Assembly (NCBI GenBank): GCA_018897155.1
Contig: JAHILE010000014.1
Coordinates: 1 to 6,743, forward strand
DNA from: Nanoarchaeota archaeon
Lineage (GTDB): Archaea > EX4484-52 > LFW-46
Reading direction: 5' to 3'
DNA length: 6,743 nt
Shown: positions 2,200 through 3,233 of the stretch, piece after piece
Layout of the letters: each line of letters opens with the position of its first letter
Position numbering within the stretch: position 1 is the first letter of the stretch
Notes under the pieces: model-generated
The model's input: only the letters and a program-made list of their open reading frames with translations
What the model was told of the DNA's origin: nothing
The model's database searches: none
Translations under genes and position numbers: made by a program

Positions 2200-3015
2200 T
2201 CATGCCACAATAGAAACCAACGTCGGTGCAATATGATAAAAAACAAAGTAATTGAAAGCTATATGTGTCGCATCAAAAACTAGGGTCTTTATCGCGCTGT
2301 GCCCTGAAGAAATATAAATTACTGAAATTATGGCGTCGTAAAGCACTGTAAAAATGACACCCCATAGCGCTATATTTGCTATTGTCAATGTTCCTGCAAG
2401 AAATCCGATAACCATTATTGTAATAAATGCAGGCCACATCTTTCCATGGTCTTCCTGTGTCAGGAGTGTGCTTAAAACAAGCGAAACAAAACCGACAATC
2501 AATCCGGCGGCGGCGCCATATGTGACTCCTGAAACTACTGTCGCAAGCATAACCAGTTCAATTCCAAACTCAAACGGAAAAAAGCGCTGCCATACCCTCG
2601 AAATCGCGCCCATGAATATCAGCGACAAAAGGACAATACCCGCTTTCATATAAGTGTAAAAGAAAAACGCGGACAAAATTAAAAGAATCGCGCCAATTGC
2701 AATTACAACTCTTCTGTGCTTCTTAAAGTCAAGTTTTATCAGCTCAAGAACGCTTTTTTCATGACGCGAGCCGCTGCAGGCAGGATTATTTGAAGAAACG
2801 CGATTTTCCGCATTTACGATATCTCGGGCAGGACTATTTAAGGTGACTCGATTTTCAGCATTTACTTTTTCAGCAATTATATTCTCATCAGTTACAGAAA
2901 CTGTTTTTTGCGCGCCTGAAAAAACTCCTGCAACCGAAAGAACGAGCCCTGAAACGCTGAATAACTGCATAGAGGATTTATCTTTTTTAATAATCCCTCC
3001 TTCTCTTAAAGTCAT
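2200..3015 (-). CDS. Multi-pass membrane protein, possibly ECF S-component-like
   Basis: The 271-residue product starts with a short basic stretch and a hydrophobic segment (about 17-34). A polar linker (about 36-100) contains a duplicated 16-residue unit (VNAENRV...), followed by basic KKHRR (98-102). About six hydrophobic segments fill the rest (roughly 103-120, 122-139, 153-186 possibly as two, 195-212, 215-235, 241-265). The stretch FEFGIELVMLATVVSGVTYGAAAGLIVGF recalls the membrane-embedded S-components of ECF vitamin transporters, usually about 180-200 residues. That matches the C-terminal 170 residues, with the N-terminal part extra. The resemblance is by pattern only, no EcfA/EcfT partner is in the window, and the substrate is unknown. 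The ATG at 3015 fits the TATA-like elements at 3041-3055. A strong GGAGGG lies inside codons 6-7, without a usable start codon at the right distance after it. Confidence 0.7.
   Translation of the reverse strand: MTLREGGIIKKDKSSMQLFSVSGLVLSVAGVFSGAQKTVSVTDENIIAEKVNAENRVTLNSPARDIVNAENRVSSNNPACSGSRHEKSVLELIKLDFKKHRRVVIAIGAILLILSAFFFYTYMKAGIVLLSLIFMGAISRVWQRFFPFEFGIELVMLATVVSGVTYGAAAGLIVGFVSLVLSTLLTQEDHGKMWPAFITIMVIGFLAGTLTIANIALWGVIFTVLYDAIISVIYISSGHSAIKTLVFDATHIAFNYFVFYHIAPTLVSIVA
2779..2865 (-). repeat. Tandem 48-base repeat inside the membrane-protein gene
   Basis: Bases 2779-2817 and 2827-2865 are diverged copies offset by 48 bases, sharing a GCAGGA core, TATTT and CGATTTTC.GCATTTAC. They encode two 16-residue units, VNAENRVTLNSPARDI and VNAENRVSSNNPACSG, in the linker before the transmembrane domain. 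The period is a multiple of three, so unit number can change without a frameshift. Confidence 0.75.
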
Positions 3016-3141: not shown

Positions 3142-3204
3142 GGCATCAGTCCGCCCATCGCTCATCACATTTTGTCAGTGTAGGTCAGTATCATCATTTG
3201 CCTG
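3142..3204 (-). ncRNA. Box C/D guide sRNA (predicted to direct 2'-O-methylation of 16S rRNA C1402)
   Basis: Read on the minus strand, the order is closing stem GGCA (3202-3199), box C ATGATGA (3197-3191), a 12-base guide (3190-3179), box D' CTGA (3178-3175), a 6-base spacer, box C' GTGATGA (3168-3162), a 12-base guide (3161-3150), box D CTGA (3149-3146) and closing stem TGCC (3145-3142). All four boxes match the archaeal consensus (RUGAUGA, CUGA), and both guides have the canonical length. Such RNAs assemble with L7Ae, Nop5 and fibrillarin to methylate the base paired to the fifth position before D or D'. The guide before D (GCGATGGGCGGA) can pair with 16S ACCGCCCGUCGC by 10 Watson-Crick pairs, one G-U and one terminal mismatch, selecting C1402. 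The guide before D' (TACTGACCTACA) has no target I can name. A TATA box at 3223-3233 sets the transcript start at about 3203. Confidence 0.88.
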
Positions 3205-3222: not shown

Positions 3223-3233
3223 GATATTTAAAA
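3223..3233 (-). promoter_or_regulatory. TATA box of the box C/D sRNA
   Basis: On the minus strand the sequence is TTTTAAATATC, centred near 3228. Twenty-five bases downstream is about 3203, exactly where the 5' closing stem of the sRNA begins. This spacing supports an independently transcribed sRNA gene. Confidence 0.65.

Follow-up and report, generated by a model that had tools for sequence, protein, structure and literature searches.

Sequence features of the sRNA

A small RNA encoded on the minus strand of the window (the whole 6,743-nt stretch of DNA analysed here), upstream of rtcB, very probably directs sugar methylation at two conserved sites of the decoding centre. The reading favoured, with high confidence, is that of a stand-alone dual-guide box C/D sRNA that guides 2'-O-methylation of C1402 and G1197 in 16S rRNA, with transcription, assembly and methylation expected from the mechanism of the family. 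The sequence, the pairing with the organism's own 16S rRNA, the conservation in a sister genome and the fibrillarin and Nop5 genes are direct observations. The most distinctive point is that the predicted guides to the A-site and P-site parts of the decoding centre lie on one RNA.

From 3202 to 3142 the minus strand reads GGCAAATGATGATACTGACCTACACTGACAAAATGTGATGAGCGATGGGCGGACTGATGCC. Its layout is GGCA, A, ATGATGA (C), TACTGACCTACA, CTGA (D'), CAAAAT, GTGATGA (C'), GCGATGGGCGGA, CTGA (D) and TGCC. The original prediction of a canonical dual-guide box C/D sRNA upstream of rtcB is borne out by the complete C, D', C' and D boxes, the Rfam C/D match and the conservation in the sister genome. The guides, each of 12 nt, and the GGCA/TGCC stem that it described are read directly in the sequence. 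It had placed the element at 3142-3204; the locus is correct and the true span is 3142-3202. The TATA box proposed to precede the stem is also present as a TATA-like element. The features are as follows.

3142..3202, minus strand: box C/D guide sRNA of 61 nt, both strands of the closing stem included; from sequence and Rfam; kept upstream of rtcB in LFW-46
3191..3197, minus strand: box C, AUGAUGA; from sequence; same in LFW-46
3179..3190, minus strand: D' guide UACUGACCUACA, 12 nt; positions 2-12 pair with the organism's own 16S GUAGGUCAGUA in 11 Watson-Crick pairs
3175..3178, minus strand: box D', CUGA; from sequence
3162..3168, minus strand: box C', GUGAUGA; from sequence; degenerate in LFW-46
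3150..3161, minus strand: D guide GCGAUGGGCGGA, 12 nt; positions 2-10 pair with the organism's own 16S CCGCCCAUC; paired positions invariant in LFW-46
3146..3149, minus strand: box D, CUGA; from sequence
3225..3232, minus strand: TATA-like element TTTAAATA; begins 30 nt ahead of the closing stem

The element has the attributes by which archaeal box C/D sRNAs are recognised. An RUGAUGA box C and a CUGA box D lie near the ends, which are joined by a terminal stem (GGCA/UGCC). Internal C' and D' boxes, separated by a spacer of six bases (CAAAAT), accompany two guides of about 12 nt. Both guides are complementary to the organism's own rRNA, with the fifth nucleotide before D or D' over the target. 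The genome encodes fibrillarin (E 2.6e-90) and Nop5, and the two genes adjoin one another.

A covariance search, which the original prediction had proposed as a check, gives a match to the Rfam family snoPyro_CD (RF00095) that extends over all 58 positions of the model (E 6.1e-4 against the window). Across the whole genome the sRNA is the sole match to this model at E<=1 (E 3.1e-5). The score over the full model is 32.8 bits, under the curated gathering score of 45 bits, and the sRNA is of the C/D class and is not filed in the snoPyro_CD family. Thermodynamic folding of the sRNA (z -0.67) is uninformative, as expected for C/D sRNAs.

By the mechanism of the family, L7Ae, Nop5 and fibrillarin would assemble on the C/D and C'/D' motifs. 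The D guide would pair with helix 44 of 16S rRNA (1399-1407), and fibrillarin would then 2'-O-methylate C1402. The D' guide would pair with helix 34 (1194-1204), which would lead to methylation of G1197.

Pairing with the organism's own 16S rRNA

The organism's own 16S gene is located at G000:C50 (L001 1501-3303). It reads CCGCCCAUCAA at 1399-1409 and ACCGCCCAUCAAAC at 1398-1411. This sequence gives a D duplex of nine Watson-Crick pairs from C1399 to C1407, in which U8 of the guide is opposite A1405. The duplex contains no G-U pair and leaves 1408 and 1409 unpaired. Position 5 of the guide lies on C1402. The original prediction had taken 1399-1409 to be CCGCCCGUCGC and had drawn an 11-bp duplex with one G-U pair; neither agrees with the gene. 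Its selection of C1402 survives the alignment to the organism's own 16S, and the pairing at 1408-1409 does not.

The D' guide, which was left unplaced in the original prediction, is the stronger of the two. Its 11 pairs fall in helix 34 (E. coli 1194-1204), and its position 5 selects G1197 (E. coli numbering, counted back from C1228). When random 12-mers from the window are matched to 16S and 23S, the chance level for the D' match is P ~0.009. G1197 is presumably equivalent to yeast G1428 (Gm1428), by way of a yeast fragment anchored on E. coli C1228 as yeast C1461. The predicted G1197 guide would be an archaeal counterpart of yeast Gm1428 and is open to test. The correspondence of E. coli C1228 with yeast C1461 is given in PMC7005279.

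The 9-bp D match is weak taken alone, because approximately 25% of random window 12-mers match equally well in 16S and 23S. This frequency is the point in favour of the C/D-like boxes and the rRNA complementarity having arisen by accident. Such an origin is scarcely credible, given the second guide with 11 bp, the concentration of sequence identity within the sRNA in the sister genome and the outcome of the pattern survey, both described below.

Position 1405 of 16S rRNA, normally G, is A here and in several genomes of the order (L001 3173-3186). Known aminoglycoside-resistance methylases act on G1405.

Conservation in the sister genome

The sister genome LFW-46 is the closest named relative, and its RtcB is 81% identical. 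It has the sRNA at the same place, upstream of rtcB. In ungapped comparison, 54/61 bases of the sRNA are identical, against 18/61 in each of the flanking 61 bases. The identity is concentrated in the boxes and in the paired guide positions. The guides differ only at position 1 in D' and position 11 in D, neither of which is paired in the duplexes with the organism's own 16S. A TATA-like element (TTTTATAC) starts 28 nt before the stem in LFW-46. A search of the LFW-46 assembly for its 16S gene, intended to show covariation between guide and target, found none.

The window and LFW-46 share one gene order: ThiF, thioredoxin, membrane protein, sRNA, rtcB. The membrane-protein-like ORF (window 2200-3015, minus strand) has no Pfam match and is kept in LFW-46 with the same neighbours.

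The shared order would suit a cis-acting leader, an L7Ae-bound kink-turn that controls either rtcB, which is divergent, or the membrane-protein gene downstream (2200-3015). This arrangement is very improbable. The sRNA runs antisense to rtcB behind a TATA-like element of its own, and a T-run precedes the downstream gene. In addition, it is the rRNA complementarity that is conserved, and the guide is also found elsewhere in unrelated contexts. These features favour the stand-alone guide sRNA.

Occurrence of the guides in other archaea

Beyond the genus, a DNA search with the whole sRNA returns only short box-level matches, and a guide-plus-box pattern was therefore used instead. The strict C1402-guide pattern consists of box C or C', the guide core RYGGGCGG and box D; the same pattern read backwards serves as the control. 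Of 394 archaeal genomes, 18 match the pattern; the backward control has no match. Among the matches examined, the majority are C/D sRNAs of canonical form that have closing stems and other partner guides. The C1402 guide thus recurs in unrelated archaea within C/D sRNAs that are otherwise different, and predicted C1402 guides are patchy across many archaeal families.

Pairing with 16S was scored in nine genomes, including that of the window (G288, G283 and G133 were left out). The guide pairs across C1402 in all nine. Position 8 of the guide is C or U opposite G1405 in the scored genomes, and U opposite A1405 here.

In three genomes from one genus of another family, a separate sRNA carries a guide that fits G1197 (for example UAUUGACCUAUU). 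In these guides a U2-A1194 pair replaces C2-G1194, which is a compensatory change. Since separate C1402 and G1197 guides occur elsewhere, both targets appear to be addressed in other archaea by separate RNAs, and here by one.

The two duplexes differ in length, and the element may be a genuine C/D sRNA in which the D' guide (G1197) alone is productive. In that case the D guide would be a docking or folding strand, an RNA chaperone that keeps helices 44 and 34 together during assembly without methylation of C1402. The D' duplex of 11 bp is significant alone, the D duplex has just 9 bp, and chaperone roles have been proposed for archaeal sRNAs with distant dual targets (PMC7994747). This version is unlikely, because unrelated archaea have the D guide together with other partner guides and Cm is observed at the C1402 position in Pyrococcus abyssi. 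Methylation directed by both guides is the better account.

Other matches have different forms. The match at L124 (around 1501) has no evident C'/D' boxes and is not counted as a canonical dual-guide sRNA. It is short and C/D-like, with one C1402 guide and a stem of CCCC/GGGG. The match at L129 looks like chance coding sequence and is likewise not counted as a dual-guide sRNA. In the three genomes of one distant genus (L125, L126 and L127, around 1501), the C1402 guide is in the D' position, and a tRNA-like 3' end precedes the sRNA by a few tens of bases. This arrangement suggests a putative tRNA-sRNA precursor. One contig of genome G349 contains two near-identical C/D sRNAs of the G1197 type (L159 and L166), approximately 4.2 kb apart, perhaps a recent duplication.

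Relation to known guides and enzymes

The sRNA is like the known archaeal box C/D sRNAs (snoPyro_CD; the Pyrococcus, Nanoarchaeum and Pyrobaculum sets) in being a dual guide of approximately 60 nt with C/D and C'/D' motifs and in following the position-5 rule. It differs from them in its new host lineage, its guide combination and its Rfam score below the gathering score. With it, an uncultured DPANN lineage gains a well-supported guide.

In Table 4 of PMC7005279, P. abyssi has Cm1376 at the C1402 position. This site is marked as archaeal/eukaryotic and is aligned with bacterial m4Cm1402, yeast Cm1639 and human Cm1703. The same row in PMC11542601 gives the P. abyssi site as Cm1369. The nucleotide, the type of modification and the archaeal host are the same as those predicted here, but the P. 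abyssi mark is observed in a structure, whereas the C1402 mark of this organism is predicted from the guide. Haloferax volcanii is without 2'-O-methyl at C1402 (PMC2584109).

The yeast guides are snR70 at the C1402 position and snR56 for Gm1428, both of which are known Nm sites (PMC8307265). The plant guide at the C1402 position is U43 (PMC11542601). By alignment, snR70/U43 (Cm1639 in yeast, Cm1703 in human) and snR56 (Gm1428) have the same two targets as the present sRNA and use a fibrillarin-type mechanism. The yeast guides are two separate snoRNAs, whereas both guides are on one RNA here.

The original prediction inferred an RNA-guided archaeal route to the C1402 modification. RNA-guided methylation at this position is not new, because P. 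abyssi Cm1376, yeast snR70 and plant U43 are already known, and the predicted guide to C1402 holds no conceptual novelty. The comparative table of PMC11542601 has no archaeal entry at the G1197 equivalent; P. abyssi is the only archaeon in it, so the novelty of G1197 cannot be judged from that table. Dennis et al. 2015 name neither C1402 nor G1197 in their main text.

The bacterial enzymes RsmI and RsmH produce m4Cm1402, with the same 2'-O position methylated. RsmI is a protein-only enzyme, whereas 3142-3202 would act by RNA guidance and no N4-methyl is predicted. No RsmI is found above the cut-off in the organism's own genome or in 60 related genomes. The predicted guides help to place the archaeal-eukaryotic RNA-guided route relative to the bacterial protein route (RsmI) to one decoding-centre mark.

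A broader and rather doubtful proposal is that RNA-guided methylation of the P-site nucleotide C1402 and of G1197 on the A side is an ancient trait of archaea and eukaryotes, maintained by guides that have been reshuffled repeatedly among sRNAs. The single RNA that has both guides in this genus could then also bridge helices 34 and 44 during 30S assembly.

Insertions in the 16S gene

The organism's own 16S gene contains four insertions of 43-151 nt relative to its relatives.

16S gene positions 627-675, 773-815, 1101-1195 and 1209-1359: insertions; from comparison with relatives

The 43-nt insertion splits the universal GGATTAGATACCC (790 loop). Its fold has a 4-bp helix flanked by two bulges of 3 nt each, the form seen in bulge-helix-bulge introns. 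If the insertions are introns, their splicing would need tRNA endonuclease and RtcB, and rtcB adjoins the sRNA.
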